Below, piece after piece: positions 5,897-54,677 of a stretch of 64,000 bases of DNA; positions within the stretch are counted from its first letter, which is position 1; every line of letters starts with the position of its first letter. Below the pieces are notes generated by a model that was not told where the DNA came from, made no database searches, and saw nothing but the letters and a program-made list of their open reading frames with translations. The DNA is taken from NCBI GenBank assembly GCA_021775995.1, contig JAJFGS010000003.1:186001-250000 (forward strand). Reading direction: 5' to 3'. Source of the stretch: Alphaproteobacteria bacterium (lineage in GTDB: Bacteria; Pseudomonadota; Alphaproteobacteria; Micavibrionales; Micavibrionaceae). The position numbers and the translations under genes are program-made.

Positions 5897-6993
5897 AATA
5901 TTTTTACTATTTCATTAGCAATTGCCATAGAGGCGGTGAGGCCTGGGCTCTCAATACCATAAAGATTAACCAGTCCTTTTATGCCGTGCTGTTTTTTATC
6001 CTGTATTATAAAGTCGCCATCGGGCATATTGGGACCAGAAATTTTAGGTCTTATACCAGCGTAAGCAGGAAATAAATCACGAGTTTTAATATCTGGCCAA
6101 AAGCGTGCTATAGAATCATAAAAGTTTTTTGAACGTTCAGAATTTACTTTATAATCAAGACTGCCATTATCATCAAGCCATTCAACATCAGGGCCAAATA
6201 GGCTTTCGCCACCAAGGTTCATTGTAAAATGTACGCCCAAACCACCTTGAACAGGCACAGGGTAAATTAGTCTTGAAAATGGAATAGCACCTGTTACGCC
6301 AAAATAGTTTCCTTTTGCCAAATATTGTTTTGGAATTAAATTTTTATCAAACCCTTCAATTTTATTGGCAATATTTTGAGCGTTTAATCCCGCAGCATTA
6401 ATTAACGTATTGACTTGTGTTTTATTTCCATCCGATAGAGTGACATAGATAGTTCCTGTTGCAACTTCAATTTTTTCAATTTGGTTGTCATAGGCAATAA
6501 GGCCATTCTGAGATTCTATATCAACAATAAATTCTTGCATGAGGTGATGTACGTCTACAATACCTGTTGAAGGGGAATGTAAGGCGGCGTGACAGGTTAA
6601 GGCTGGTTCAAGAGCTATAGCTTCTTGCTTTTTTATAATACGTAAATCAGTGACACCATTTAAGACCGCTTTTTGTTTAATTGCTTCTAATTTTGGGATT
6701 TCATCTTCTGTACAGGCAACAATAAGTTTTGTACAATTTTTATAGGGGACATTTCTTTCTTTGACATATTCATGCAATCTTTTCTTTCCTTCTACACACA
6801 AACGCGCCTTGTTTGAGCCTTGCGGGTAGTAAATTCCTGCGTGAAGAACACCAGAATTCCGTGCGCTGGTCATTGAGCCAGGAATTTTTTCTCTTTCGGC
6901 CACAATAACTTCACGATTATTGAAGGAAAAAGCACGAGCTATGGCCAATCCCACAACCCCAGCTCCAATCACAAGAACGTCAATTTTTCCCAT
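5893..6993 (-). CDS. FAD-dependent oxidoreductase, L-2-hydroxyglutarate oxidase (LhgO)-like
   Basis: VLVIGAGVVGLAIARAF, SARNSGVLHAGIYYPQGSNKARLCVEGK, NLYGIESPGLTASMAIA. Confidence 0.85.
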   Translation of the reverse strand: MGKIDVLVIGAGVVGLAIARAFSFNNREVIVAEREKIPGSMTSARNSGVLHAGIYYPQGSNKARLCVEGKKRLHEYVKERNVPYKNCTKLIVACTEDEIPKLEAIKQKAVLNGVTDLRIIKKQEAIALEPALTCHAALHSPSTGIVDVHHLMQEFIVDIESQNGLIAYDNQIEKIEVATGTIYVTLSDGNKTQVNTLINAAGLNAQNIANKIEGFDKNLIPKQYLAKGNYFGVTGAIPFSRLIYPVPVQGGLGVHFTMNLGGESLFGPDVEWLDDNGSLDYKVNSERSKNFYDSIARFWPDIKTRDLFPAYAGIRPKISGPNMPDGDFIIQDKKQHGIKGLVNLYGIESPGLTASMAIANEIVKIF

Positions 6994-9241: not shown

Positions 9242-11112
9242 CAGGGATTTTTCACTTTGATAATCAATCAGTTTCCCCTGTTATTTTAAAAAATATGACG
9301 GATGCTATTGCGCATCGTGGTCCTGATGGTGAAGGACAATGGATTGACGGTCCTGTTGGTCTGGGCCATCGACGTTTAGCCGTTTTAGATTTGTCGCCTG
9401 CTGGTAGCCAACCAATGCAGTCTAAAAATGGGCAGTTCATTTTAAGCTATAACGGTGAAATATATAATCATTTAGAAATTAGATCTGAGTTAGAAGCTAA
9501 AGGATATCATTTTCATTCGCGAACAGATTCTGAAGTTTTACTTCATGCTTATGCAGAATGGGGGATGCGTTGTTTGACGCGTTTGAATGGCATGTTTGCT
9601 TTTGCTATTTGGGATACAAAGAAAAAACGGATGGTATTGGCGCGCGATAGATATGGCATTAAACCACTTTATTATTCACTTCAAGGAAATGTTTTACGTT
9701 TTGGGTCCGAACAAAAAGCAATTTTAGCTGATGGTGGTTTTAAAAGTAACCTTAATAAAAGAGCATTATTAGAATATTTTACATTTCAAAATATTTTTAC
9801 AGATCAAACTTTGTTGGAAGGTATTTCATTATTACCCGCAGGTCATTTTATTGTTGTTGATCCAGCAAAAGAAAAAAAAATCCGTGTCCATCAGTTTTGG
9901 GATTTTAATTTTAGAGAACCAGAACAAAAAGCAAGTGTAGAAGAGTATCGTGAAGAACTTGATCGTCTTTTTAAACAAGCAGTTAATCGCCAGTTAATGA
10001 CGGATGTTGAGCTAGGTAGTTATCTAAGCGGAGGAATTGATTCTGGTGCTATTACGGCGATAGCTTCAGAATCTTATCCTTATATGAAGACATTTACGTG
10101 CGGGTTTGATTTGAATTCAGCTTCTGGAATTGAACTTAGTTATGATGAGCGCGCAAGAGCTGAGAGAATGTCTTACCATTGTAAAACAGAGCATTATGAA
10201 ATGGTTCTTAAGGCTGGTGATATGGAGCGAGTTATGCCAGAACTTGCGTATTATTTAGAAGAGCCGCGTGTTGGACAAAGCTATCCAAATTATTATGCCG
10301 CACAACTTGCTTCTAAATTTGTAAAAGTTGTTTTAAGTGGTGCGGGTGGAGATGAGTTATTTGGTGGGTATCCATGGCGCTATTATAGAGCGGTTGTGAA
10401 TAGTGATTTTGAAGATTATGTTGATAAATATTATATGTTTTGGCAACGATTGATTCCGAATAGTGTTATTAAAGATGTGTTTAGGCCTATTTGGGGTGAT
10501 GTTGATGATGTATGGACACGCGATATATTTCGAGATGTGTTTAGGCACCATATGCCAAAATTGACACGCCCAGAAGATTATATTAATCATTCTCTTTACT
10601 TTGAAGCCAAAACATTTTTACATGGTTTATTGGTTGTTGAGGATAAGCTTTCTATGGCACACGGATTGGAAAGTCGTGTGCCGTTTCTTGATAATGATTT
10701 AGTTGATTTTGCAATGCAGTGCCCCGTTGAATTAAAATTAAATAATTTATCAGACGTTGTGCGTGTTAATGAAAATGAAGTTGGAAATAAAACAAAGAAC
10801 TATTTTCAAAAAACAAAGGATGGAAAGCAGATTGTCCGCGATACAATGAAAAAATACATGCCCGAAGAAATTTCATCAGCAGAAAAGCAAGGTTTTTCTG
10901 CTCCTGATGCAAGTTGGTTCAAGGGTGAAAGTATTGATTTTGTGAAAGAAAAACTTATGGATGATCATGCAAAGATATACAAATATTTAGATCGTTCAAG
11001 TGTAAAAGAGTTGGTGAATAAGCATTTAGAAGGAAAAGAGAATAAGAGATTGTTAATATGGTCTCTTTTAAATGTAGAATTATGGCTTGAAACGAATGAG
11101 GCTATAACATGA
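9229..11112 (+). CDS. asparagine synthase (glutamine-hydrolysing)-like amidotransferase
   Basis: N-terminal MCGIAGIFHF class II GATase, SYNGEIYNH, SYLSGGIDSGAITA PPi motif. Confidence 0.9.
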   Translation: MCGIAGIFHFDNQSVSPVILKNMTDAIAHRGPDGEGQWIDGPVGLGHRRLAVLDLSPAGSQPMQSKNGQFILSYNGEIYNHLEIRSELEAKGYHFHSRTDSEVLLHAYAEWGMRCLTRLNGMFAFAIWDTKKKRMVLARDRYGIKPLYYSLQGNVLRFGSEQKAILADGGFKSNLNKRALLEYFTFQNIFTDQTLLEGISLLPAGHFIVVDPAKEKKIRVHQFWDFNFREPEQKASVEEYREELDRLFKQAVNRQLMTDVELGSYLSGGIDSGAITAIASESYPYMKTFTCGFDLNSASGIELSYDERARAERMSYHCKTEHYEMVLKAGDMERVMPELAYYLEEPRVGQSYPNYYAAQLASKFVKVVLSGAGGDELFGGYPWRYYRAVVNSDFEDYVDKYYMFWQRLIPNSVIKDVFRPIWGDVDDVWTRDIFRDVFRHHMPKLTRPEDYINHSLYFEAKTFLHGLLVVEDKLSMAHGLESRVPFLDNDLVDFAMQCPVELKLNNLSDVVRVNENEVGNKTKNYFQKTKDGKQIVRDTMKKYMPEEISSAEKQGFSAPDASWFKGESIDFVKEKLMDDHAKIYKYLDRSSVKELVNKHLEGKENKRLLIWSLLNVELWLETNEAIT

Positions 11113-24347: not shown

Positions 24348-26300
24348 ATGTGCGGTATTGCAGGATTTTATGCGCCTAATAAAGAAAATCTCTCCGTTAT
24401 AAAAGGCATGTCTGATGTTATACATCATCGTGGTCCTGATGATTTTGGTGCGGTCTATTTATGTGATGCTGAAAAATCCTTAAAAACATATAAGTTAGAT
24501 ACAGAGGAAAAAACATATCTTGCTTTGGGACATCGACGGTTATCTGTTGTAGATTTATCCTCTAAAGGCCATCAGCCGATGAGTTATAAAAACGGATGTT
24601 ATTGGATTACCTATAATGGGGAAATATATAATTATATTGAATTACGGACTGAATTAGAAGATTTAGGTCACGTTTTTTTCTCAGACAGTGATACCGAAGT
24701 AGTTTTGGCGGCGTATGATGAATGGGGAATTGTGTGCCAAAATAGATTTAATGGAATGTGGGCGTTTGTAATATATGATTTGAAAAATAATAGTCTGTTT
24801 TTCTCCCGTGACCGATTTGGCATAAAGCCTTTGTATTATTGGGTGTCACCGGATGGTGTGCTTTATTTCGGCTCTGAAATAAAACAATTTACACAAGCAA
24901 GAGGATGGCAGGCTAACCTTAACCATCAACGCGCTTATGATTTTCTGGTTTGGGGGGTAACAGACCATACCGAAGAAACATTATTTAAAGGTGTTTATCA
25001 GGTGAGGCCAGGTCATCATGTTCAGCTTGTTTTAGAGAATACGTTCTTTGAAAGCGGTAAAAAAATTTCTAGTCAGTGTTGGTACGTACTAAAAGGGACA
25101 AACAATAAAGATGTGTTTGAAAGCGCATGTCAAAAATTACAACATTTATTGAAAGAAGCGGTAAATTTAAGACTTCGGGCAGATGTAGCAGTGGGGTCAT
25201 GTCTATCAGGCGGATTAGATTCTTCGTCTATTGTTTGTTTAATGAATGATATTTTAAAAGAGAACTGTTCTATAAATATTCAAAAAACTTTTTCAGCTTG
25301 TTCCCATGTTGATAAATATGATGAAAAAAAATGGATTGATATGGTTGTTGATCAAACCGATGTTGAGCCGTTATATGTTTATCCTCGGATGAATGATTTA
25401 TTCAAACACCTATCTGATATTACTTGGCATCAGGATGAACCATTCGGTTCGACCAGCATTTTTGCACAATGGGAAGTTTTTTCTTTAGCAAAGGAAAATG
25501 ATGTGACGGTTATGTTGGATGGACAAGGAGCCGATGAGCAACTTGCAGGGTATCATTCATTTTTTGGAGCGCGGTTATTTGATTTAATTAAAAGTGCACA
25601 TTTTTTTACATTTTTTAAAGAGGCCCGTGAGATTCATAGGCAACATGATCATAGTTGGTATTGGTTAATAGCGCATGTTTTAGCCAACATATTACCTGTT
25701 TCGATTAAAAGCATGTTAAGGAAAATGGTTGGGAGGAGTCATCCTAATCCAGAATGGTTAAATCTTGCAGCAGTAAAAGACTTTTCGGGTAATCCTTTAG
25801 ATAAATCTATTCAAGGTGTTAATAAATTATCTTATGCTCAAATGACATCAACTAATTTACAAATGTTATTGCATTGGGAAGATCGTGATTCTATGGCGCA
25901 TTCTATAGAATCGAGAGTACCGTTTTTAGATTATCGTGTTGTTGAATATGTGATGGGATTGCCCAGTTACTATAAAATAAAAGGTAGCATAACTAAGCGG
26001 GTTTTGCGTGAGGCTATGGATGGAATTATACCTAATAAAATTAAAAACAGGATAGATAAAATTGGTTTTGCAACACCTGAAGAAGTTTGGATAAAACAGC
26101 AATCTACTGAATTATTTAGAGAAAAAATAAAAGAATCTATCAAGAATTCGAATGGTATTATTAATTCTGAAGCATTGTTATATTTTGATGATGTCGTGAA
26201 AGGGGTAAAACCATTTAATTTTACAATATGGAGAATAATAAGTTTTGTCGAGTGGCTGAGAGTTTTTAAAGTAAATAGTGATGTTGTGGTGAATGGTTGA
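24348..26300 (+). CDS. asparagine synthase (glutamine-hydrolysing)-like amidotransferase
   Basis: MCGIAGFYAP start, TYNGEIYNYIELR, SCLSGGLDSSSIVCL; mature Cys requires start at 24348 rather than 24306. Confidence 0.9.
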   Translation: MCGIAGFYAPNKENLSVIKGMSDVIHHRGPDDFGAVYLCDAEKSLKTYKLDTEEKTYLALGHRRLSVVDLSSKGHQPMSYKNGCYWITYNGEIYNYIELRTELEDLGHVFFSDSDTEVVLAAYDEWGIVCQNRFNGMWAFVIYDLKNNSLFFSRDRFGIKPLYYWVSPDGVLYFGSEIKQFTQARGWQANLNHQRAYDFLVWGVTDHTEETLFKGVYQVRPGHHVQLVLENTFFESGKKISSQCWYVLKGTNNKDVFESACQKLQHLLKEAVNLRLRADVAVGSCLSGGLDSSSIVCLMNDILKENCSINIQKTFSACSHVDKYDEKKWIDMVVDQTDVEPLYVYPRMNDLFKHLSDITWHQDEPFGSTSIFAQWEVFSLAKENDVTVMLDGQGADEQLAGYHSFFGARLFDLIKSAHFFTFFKEAREIHRQHDHSWYWLIAHVLANILPVSIKSMLRKMVGRSHPNPEWLNLAAVKDFSGNPLDKSIQGVNKLSYAQMTSTNLQMLLHWEDRDSMAHSIESRVPFLDYRVVEYVMGLPSYYKIKGSITKRVLREAMDGIIPNKIKNRIDKIGFATPEEVWIKQQSTELFREKIKESIKNSNGIINSEALLYFDDVVKGVKPFNFTIWRIISFVEWLRVFKVNSDVVVNG

Positions 26301-51782: not shown

Positions 51783-52763
51783 ATGTCTGGTATTTCTCGT
51801 GACCCTACACAAAAAATAAATTCAAAGCCACAGAACTTTTTCCAAAATTTAGGTAAGAATGCACAAATGGTTCAAAAAGAAGAGAAAAAACAACAGATTG
51901 AAATAAAATCTGAGCCGAAATCTGTACCAATGAAGCCAGGGTTCTATCTTGTAGCAACCCCAATCGGGAATTTACGCGATATTACCTTTAGAGCGCTGGA
52001 TGTTCTGTCATCTGTTGATTTAATCGTCTGTGAAGATACGCGGGTGACGGGTAAGTTGATGAATGCTTATGGATTTAAGAAGAAGATGCAGGTCTATAAT
52101 GACCATAGTACAGATAAGCAGCGCGAGCATCTCATTCAATGTGTGGCTGATGGACAATCTGTTGCGGTTTTAAGCGATGCGGGAACGCCTTTGGTTTCTG
52201 ATCCGGGCTATAAATTGGTGCGTGGCGCGGTGGAGGCTGAGTTATATGTGACTTCTATTCCCGGACCGAATGCCGCGCTTCCTGCGTTACAGCTTTCAGG
52301 GTTGCCGACCGACCAGTTTTGTTTTCTAGGTTTTTTGCCACCCAAAACCACGGCACGTCAGACAGCGTTAAAAAAATGGGAAATGGTACCAGGGAGTTTG
52401 ATTGTATATGAAACAGGACCTAGGCTGATTGATAGCTTGCAAGATATGCGAAATGTTTTGGGCAATCGTGAAGCAGCGGTAATGCGTGAGCTCACAAAAA
52501 TGTATGAAGAAGTAAAGCGTGGAAAATTGTCAGATCTAATTGTGAGCTATACAAAATCTGGTGCCCCTAAGGGTGAGATTGTTGTGGTGTTAGGGCAGGC
52601 CGTGGCAGAGATTGTTTCAACGGAGAGTATTGAAAAACAAATAAAATCTGCGCTGGAAAAAATGTCTGTGCGTGATGCGGCCGAAATGGTATCGCAAGCG
52701 ACGGGCAAACCTAAGAAAACAATTTATACACTGGCCTTGAAACTTGCGAGTGATAGGAAATAG
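51783..52763 (+). CDS. rsmI: 16S rRNA (cytidine-2'-O)-methyltransferase
   Basis: GFYLVATPIGNLRDITFRAL, EDTRVTGKL, SDAGTPLVSDPGYKLV, GPNAALPALQLSGLP. Confidence 0.95.
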   Translation: MSGISRDPTQKINSKPQNFFQNLGKNAQMVQKEEKKQQIEIKSEPKSVPMKPGFYLVATPIGNLRDITFRALDVLSSVDLIVCEDTRVTGKLMNAYGFKKKMQVYNDHSTDKQREHLIQCVADGQSVAVLSDAGTPLVSDPGYKLVRGAVEAELYVTSIPGPNAALPALQLSGLPTDQFCFLGFLPPKTTARQTALKKWEMVPGSLIVYETGPRLIDSLQDMRNVLGNREAAVMRELTKMYEEVKRGKLSDLIVSYTKSGAPKGEIVVVLGQAVAEIVSTESIEKQIKSALEKMSVRDAAEMVSQATGKPKKTIYTLALKLASDRK

Positions 52764-52841
52764 ACAGGCTGGGTTATAAGGCAAAAACTTACGATAAAGG
52801 CCGAAAAGGCCGCTGCAAAGTGGCTTATTCTTGAGGCGCAT
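52736..52841 (+). pseudogene. decayed copy of rsmI-end/yraN-start junction (copy A; yraN part non-functional)
   Basis: cttgaaacttgcgagtgataggaaataga...aggcaaaaacttacgataaagg..ccgaaaaggccgctgcaaagtggctta matches 53440-53560 with substitutions and small deletions. Confidence 0.8.
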
Positions 52842-52932
52842 TAGCAATTCTATATATTTCACATATACTCCATTGACATAAAGATTTTAGTCCTCTAATG
52901 TCCCGTCTGGTCATAAGAAGGAGTATATATCA

Positions 52933-53340
52933 ATGAAAACAGAAAATTCAGAGACAGAAGAAAAACTAAAGCCAGCCGTAGATCCAAATCCAGGCGTAGG
53001 TCGGTTTGGTGTATGCCTATTAGCATTCATGGGGGGCGTCATGGTAGTTAGCGCTTTATCAAAGGCTGTTGGAGATGGGCGTAGCCGGAAGTTTGCAACA
53101 GCAAACCCGTCAGAAGCTATTAAAATAGCTATTGAAGCGGGTATGCCTGAAGGCTTGCCTAAGCATCTACCCGCTTGCCGAGAGAAGTTTAATGTCACAG
53201 TTAGTTCAGAAGTCACAACAAAAGAAGCAAACGCAGTAGTTGGCTGCGCAGCAGAAAAGCACAGAGTCGAGATTCTGGATAAAGCCTATGAGCAGGCGAA
53301 AGAAACTGGCGATTATAGCGGTATAGTTTTAAAGCCTTAG
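52933..53340 (+). CDS. hypothetical membrane-anchored protein inserted between rsmI and yraN
   Basis: 135 aa; hydrophobic segment RFGVCLLAFMGGVMVVSAL; no recognised domain; preceded by aaggag-like RBS. Confidence 0.6.
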   Translation: MKTENSETEEKLKPAVDPNPGVGRFGVCLLAFMGGVMVVSALSKAVGDGRSRKFATANPSEAIKIAIEAGMPEGLPKHLPACREKFNVTVSSEVTTKEANAVVGCAAEKHRVEILDKAYEQAKETGDYSGIVLKP

Positions 53341-53379
53341 GTAGTCACTAAATCCTTGCACCGTCTCACTCAAAGCAGT

Positions 53380-53470
53380 GTTAAAAAATGTATGAAGAAG
53401 TAAATCATGGCAAATTGTCAGGTTTAATTGTACATTAGCGTTGAAACTTTTGAGTGATAGGAAATAGGCA
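53380..53470 (+). pseudogene. decayed partial copy of rsmI 3' end (copy B)
   Basis: aaaaatgtatgaagaagtaaatcatggcaaattgtcaggtttaattgt ... ttgaaacttttgagtgataggaaatag matches 52496-52541 and 52736-52763 with internal deletion. Confidence 0.8.
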
Positions 53471-53856
53471 TGTTGGATCGCCGCCTTGTAAATAAGACAA
53501 AAACTTACGATAAAGGGATAAAGGCTGAAAAGGCTGCTGCGAAGTGGCTCATCTTGAAGGGCTATGAAATTCTTGAAACGCGCTACAAGACAAAATACGG
53601 CGAAATTGATCTTATTATCCAAAAGAAAAACACTATTGCCTTTGTTGAGGTAAAGGCGCGGGTCACTAAAGATAAAGCCTTAGAGAGCGTAACGCCAAGG
53701 ATGCAACAGCGCATAATACAGGCTGCTTCCTATTATATAAGCCAAAATAATGTTGAAGGCTATGACCTTCGTTTTGATGTTATATCGGTTGTGCCATCTT
53801 TCCTTGGAATGGTCACAATTCAACATCTGGACAACGCATGGCAGCTGACGGCATAA
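53470..53856 (+). CDS. yraN: YraN family (UPF0102) endonuclease-like protein
   Basis: KAEKAAAKWLILKGYEILETRYKTKYGEIDLIIQKKNTIAFVEVKAR. Confidence 0.92.
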   Translation: MLDRRLVNKTKTYDKGIKAEKAAAKWLILKGYEILETRYKTKYGEIDLIIQKKNTIAFVEVKARVTKDKALESVTPRMQQRIIQAASYYISQNNVEGYDLRFDVISVVPSFLGMVTIQHLDNAWQLTA

Positions 53857-53864
53857 TAGCCATT

Positions 53865-54677
53865 ATGATTCGAAATAAATTAATTCTTGCTCTTCTTCTT
53901 TCTCCTCTCCTGTTGGGGGGCTGTACTGGTTTAGGTATGGTTACAGGAGCGGCGGCTGTGACAGGTGTTTCTGCGGCGCAAGAGGGCGGTATCCCGCGCG
54001 CAATTGATGACGCTAAAATAAAAATAAAAATTAACGAAGCGTGGTTTCAATATGATGTGGATGCCTTTCGTAAATTAAGCACAACCGTCAATCAAGGGCG
54101 TGTTTTAATTACGGGTGTTGTGCAAGATCCTGCACAACGGGTTGAGGCTATTCGTCTTGTCTGGCTTGTCGAAGGTGTTGAACAAGTTATCAATGAAATT
54201 CGTGTTGCTGATAGTGCTGGCGTTACAGGTTTTGTAAAAGATGCATGGATTACATCGCGCTTACGTGGTTCTTTAACACTCAATCGCGGTGTTCAGTCTA
54301 TTAATTATTCTATTGAGACGGTTCAAGGCGTTGTTTACTTGATGGGTGTTGCCCAACATCAAGCAGAACTTAATCTTGTGATTGAAACAGCACGAACAAT
54401 ATCAGGTGTGAAGCAAGTTGTAAGTTACGTGAAATTAGCGGGTGAACCTTTGTCAGGGGAAACAAAAGCACAACCATTACCAGAAACGAATGTTCCTGCC
54501 CAACCGCAGAACTTGCAAAATAATATTCAGAACCAACCGCCGGAAAACTATGGTCCAGTTACGAGTTCATCAAATGTAAATACGGTGTCAAAGGTAGAGG
54601 TTGCACCAGACATTGATGTTCCAACAAAAACTGTTCCTGAAAATGCTCCTTCTATTGAAGACCAATATTATAATTAA
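53865..54677 (+). CDS. BON domain lipoprotein (DolP/YraP-like)
   Basis: Lipobox LLLGGCTGLG, two BON-like repeats; lpoA-rsmI-yraN-dolP-like synteny. Confidence 0.82.
   Translation: MIRNKLILALLLSPLLLGGCTGLGMVTGAAAVTGVSAAQEGGIPRAIDDAKIKIKINEAWFQYDVDAFRKLSTTVNQGRVLITGVVQDPAQRVEAIRLVWLVEGVEQVINEIRVADSAGVTGFVKDAWITSRLRGSLTLNRGVQSINYSIETVQGVVYLMGVAQHQAELNLVIETARTISGVKQVVSYVKLAGEPLSGETKAQPLPETNVPAQPQNLQNNIQNQPPENYGPVTSSSNVNTVSKVEVAPDIDVPTKTVPENAPSIEDQYYN

Follow-up and report, generated by a model that had tools for sequence, protein, structure and literature searches.

How did a small gene without recognizable relatives come to lie between rsmI and yraN, two neighbours in a conserved housekeeping operon? 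The locus belongs to an uncultured alphaproteobacterium and lies on a 270-kb contig of a 2.0-Mb genome assembly (15 contigs, 99.97% complete). We analysed a 64-kb stretch of this contig (64,000 nucleotides; the window), in which the gene between rsmI and yraN, here called ORFX, is enclosed by partial copies of the sequences that flank it (Table 1).

Table 1. Features of the rsmI–yraN locus, with positions in the window
Feature	Position	Strand	Evidence or remark
rsmI, intact, left neighbour (16S rRNA C1402 2'-O-methyltransferase)	51783–52763	+	TIGR00096 E 2.1e-72; Pfam TP_methylase and RsmI_C; 90% identity to G006
rsmI segment repeated at 53384–53431; outer left end of the duplicated unit	52496–52543	+	90% identity
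Left junction copy: rsmI end and decayed yraN start (yraN-like part ~52764–52834)	52724–52834	+	72% gapped identity to 53428–53557; small deletions, frame loss
Inserted unique stretch, no similarity to flanks	52842–53383	+	
ORFX, orphan 135-aa gene, one predicted transmembrane segment (~residues 24–45)	52933–53340	+	AAGGAG ribosome-binding site upstream; hydropathy; codon usage
Right junction copy: decayed rsmI tail with 183–184-bp internal deletion; presumed yraN ribosome-binding region included	53384–53469	+	
yraN (UPF0102), intact, right neighbour	53470–53856	+	Pfam UPF0102 E 3.2e-25; NCBIfam YraN
BON-domain lipoprotein gene (dolP-like), conserved downstream neighbour	53838–54677	+	Pfam BON E 7.1e-25

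A first-pass annotation of this DNA had proposed that the rsmI-3'/yraN-5' junction occurs twice, as diverged direct repeats on either side of a novel ORF. Our analysis confirms that the junction is present twice in this form, around an unrelated 542-bp stretch. Self-BLAST of the window pairs 52724–52834 with 53428–53557 (E 9.3e-14) and 52496–52543 with 53384–53431 (E 1.7e-10), and self-alignment of the copies is highly significant, with a local alignment score of 94, whereas 500 shuffles average 19.4 and never exceed 33. When 52740–53480 is searched against the whole 2.0-Mb genome, only the two repeat partners match besides the query itself (E 3.3e-11 each). With a minimum length of 30 bp and a threshold of E 1e-3, the window has no further direct repeats spaced 5 kb or less apart. 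At a greater distance, 9356–9496 and 24520–24660, places 15 kb apart, have ~143 bp in common at 69% identity.

Both partial genes are degenerate, as the first-pass annotation had described. The yraN start downstream of the intact rsmI lacks ~9–12 bp after the start region and 8 bp after ACGATAAA, and its frame is lost around 52830. The rsmI tail upstream of the intact yraN carries the large internal deletion, and the decayed copy has changes at rsmI residues that are conserved in relatives (R to H, D to G and A to L). The surroundings of the rsmI stop are identical in both copies (GAGTGATAGGAAATAG), and this stretch should also be the presumed yraN ribosome-binding region. Judged from the extents of the left and right copies, the duplicated unit is roughly 360 bp long, beginning near nucleotide 714 of rsmI and ending near nucleotide 88 of yraN.

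The homology of the copies extends past neither boundary into the middle 542 bp. We rejected the idea that this middle stretch is the diverged rest of a longer rsmI–yraN duplication, because it has no similarity at the DNA or protein level to the yraN 3' part, the BON gene, the rsmI 5' part or lpoA. The insert is coding. An ORF of the length of ORFX arises in 0.05% of shuffles (P 0.0005), and its codon usage is host-like (34th percentile of 135-codon pieces from the long genes of the window), with shuffles and the other frames of the same stretch scoring clearly lower. The novel ORF claimed by the first-pass annotation lies at the position given there and has no family match in the libraries searched: no relatives were found in Pfam, PHROGs (best E 0.024), NCBIfam, PADLOC or PDB sequences (best E 1.1), or among plasmids, phages, viral contigs or genome contigs. 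ORFX is also absent from the other genomes of the genus, from 144 genomes of the order and from a class sample of 386 (some overlap between these sets). A single-sequence structure prediction, made with no alignment, reaches a mean pLDDT of 56, too poor for a structure search. The most that can be said from the sequence is that the product is probably a small membrane-anchored accessory protein.

The ORF list and Pfam reveal no transposase or integrase in 52842–53383, and an inverted-repeat scan found nothing convincing at the insert ends. Promoter and terminator scans gave results at about chance level. A hairpin over the ORFX ribosome-binding site was considered and rejected, the leader folding no better than shuffles (z −0.65).

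In the three relatives closest by yraN among those fetched (G006, G004 and G008), rsmI and yraN are separated by only 4–8 bp and the BON-domain gene follows directly downstream; yraN is adjoined by this gene in most relatives. Because these three genomes have the simple junction and ORFX is found in no other genome searched, the insert is secondary, as the first-pass annotation had supposed. The interpretation given there is supported: of the two outcomes it had named as refuting, a lack of significant similarity between the copies and the same arrangement in all relatives, neither was obtained. The yraN match in G008 (L004) has one in-frame TAA reported. In a genome from another genus of the family (G019; L021 ~642–1497), a solute-binding-protein-like gene lies between rsmI and yraN with no flanking repeats, and the rsmI–yraN junction seems tolerant of insertions.

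On balance, we consider it probable that ORFX was inserted at the rsmI–yraN junction with a ~360-bp direct target duplication and that the redundant halves then decayed. In such an event a small accessory gene would have entered the operon junction together with the duplication. The left junction retains the whole of rsmI and the right junction the whole of yraN with its presumed ribosome-binding site, so that neither housekeeping gene was lost. Deletions and substitutions have since eroded the superfluous copies of the yraN start and the rsmI tail, and this decay would also have stabilized the insert by removing the identical repeats that would recombine it out. We infer that duplication and insertion took place in one event, by a recombinational mechanism; the one-step case is weakened by the fact that the same layout would result if the tandem duplication were older and the insertion had come afterwards, at the novel joint.

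The divergence of the copies bears on how they arose. They differ at 20 of 146 comparable sites (14%), less than the 33 of 146 (23%) at which the intact genes differ from those of G006, and the event is therefore younger than the split from G006. When differences are polarized with G006, 12 of the 13 that are informative fall in the partial copies, which favours decay there, but the 12:1 excess is not repeated with G004 and G008 (7:9 and 8:5). Sixteen codons are changed between the copies, nine synonymously and seven non-synonymously, a synonymous excess with P ~0.004–0.01 under neutral decay and P 0.05–0.12 under a half-neutral model, in which half of the change took place under selection. 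Within the yraN block 53519–53554, five of the six differences are at third positions. The departure from neutral decay and the third-position bias would suit single-crossover (Campbell-type) or homology-facilitated integration from a related strain, in which the donor had its own rsmI–yraN junction fragment beside ORFX and the copies diverged before they were joined. The order of the repeats is the one expected after a single crossover, and the host-like codon usage of ORFX fits a related donor. Functional sister alleles, however, should split their differences evenly, contrary to the excess in the partial copies seen with G006; in addition, the half-neutral model is not rejected and no donor was found. 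We regard such an integration as unlikely, though worth serious consideration.

Tandem duplications are frequent, and an ordinary tandem duplication of the rsmI-3'/yraN-5' segment could have preceded the insertion of ORFX, which would then have entered at the duplication joint. The layout is compatible with this order of events, as is the excess of changes that the partial copies show when G006 serves as outgroup. It would nevertheless call for a separate, second insertion at precisely the joint, and at a second locus described below insert and duplication are coupled in the same way, making this order of events rather improbable. The first-pass annotation had named tandem duplication or single-crossover integration, each followed by decay of the redundant halves. 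The decay is borne out by the deletions and by the changes at conserved residues, whereas the two routes could not be separated. A further alternative is a chimera of strain variants, made when a metagenome-derived genome was assembled. In its favour, those close relatives that have public titles are metagenome-assembled genomes. Both partial copies, however, carry disabling deletions and changes at conserved residues, which strain alleles strung together would lack, and the locus lies on a long contig of a nearly complete assembly; a chimera is very improbable. Insertion coupled to target duplication remains our preferred reading.

A search for nearby direct repeats in an adjoining 187 kb of the same contig turned up a second case, a GIY-YIG ORF (Pfam E 7.3e-15) between a GNAT gene and cysN (L080:18607–19116; G000 C8 ~170607–171116). 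A second copy of the first 32 bp of cysN, 97% identical, stands ahead of the GIY-YIG insert, immediately where the GNAT gene ends, and in G006 and G004 the GNAT gene and cysN abut with no insert. The GNAT–cysN insertion has the same anatomy as the rsmI–yraN insertion. The other GIY-YIG copies in the genome show no clear duplicated gene start; several of them have repeats on their flanks, most of which are palindromic and of the GTCATTGCGAG type. Small GIY-YIG genes are multi-copy in G000, G006 and G007 (L108–L118), where several have flanking palindromic repeats of this type. Other repeats noted are those of two adjacent HTH_3 genes (L077:11630–12995), which have almost the same DNA-binding start (151 bp, 89%) but differ in their C-terminal parts, and a 71-bp intergenic repeat, 87% identical, at two places ~4 kb apart (L080:2425–2492 and 6368–6438).

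Two cases on one contig suggest a possibly recurrent insertion route. More tentatively, and with more doubt than confidence, operon junctions in this lineage may repeatedly acquire small accessory genes through an insertion process that needs no transposase and duplicates the junction (32 to ~360 bp), with rsmI–yraN and GNAT–cysN as two instances. If so, orphan genes would enter housekeeping operons with neither neighbour broken. The rsmI–yraN locus shows cleanly how an orphan gene can come into a conserved housekeeping operon with no mobile element involved: the footprint of the insertion, in the form of decaying flank copies, can still be read, and the empty site is known in relatives. Because of the second case on the same contig, we suggest that transposase-free gene gains, which are normally missed, could be found by surveying decayed junction duplications.

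Known systems include genomic islands that a site-specific recombinase places at a gene's 3' end. They resemble this locus in having a partial gene-end duplication next to the insert, but here the insert has no integrase, the junction of two protein genes is the target and the ~360-bp repeat far exceeds an att core in length. Insertion of an IS or transposon, recognizable by a transposase or element ends and a few-bp target duplication, was rejected: the insert has no transposase and the duplication is ~360 bp. Homology-facilitated illegitimate recombination, described in Acinetobacter, S. pneumoniae and P. stutzeri (discussed in PMC5361080), would place foreign DNA beside a homologous anchor without a transposase and leave remnants of displaced genes, in which it resembles this locus. 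A one-sided anchor alone does not require repeats at both ends, unlike the arrangement at rsmI–yraN. It is an alternative transposase-free route, for which this locus offers no evidence of a donor or of competence.

The closest counterpart is insertion with long target duplication, which Nobusato, Uchiyama, Ohashi and Kobayashi (Gene, 2000) reported on the basis of two H. pylori genomes and which is compared here through the descriptions in later papers (PMC1643837, PMC3031569). In those descriptions the target duplications are long and variable, and the insertions are often linked to restriction-modification genes (PMC1643837, PMC3031569). As in our case, a gene lies between long direct target repeats whose length varies from case to case (here ~360 bp at rsmI–yraN and 32 bp at cysN), a relative has the uninterrupted single-copy target (here G006, G004 and G008), and the insert has no transposase, integrase or terminal inverted repeats. 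The link to restriction-modification in the H. pylori cases is, as described, frequent rather than defining, whereas ORFX is a small orphan gene with no family match; the repeats here are also decayed, and the host is an uncultured alphaproteobacterium. The first-pass annotation had proposed a transposase-free route into a housekeeping locus; the insert indeed has no transposase, but the route itself is already in the literature. As far as the later descriptions go, the rsmI–yraN locus shares the anatomical features of insertion with long target duplication and differs in its cargo. Transposase-free insertion with duplicated flanks is thus a known but rarely documented kind of event, of which this locus is a clear further example, carrying an orphan gene.
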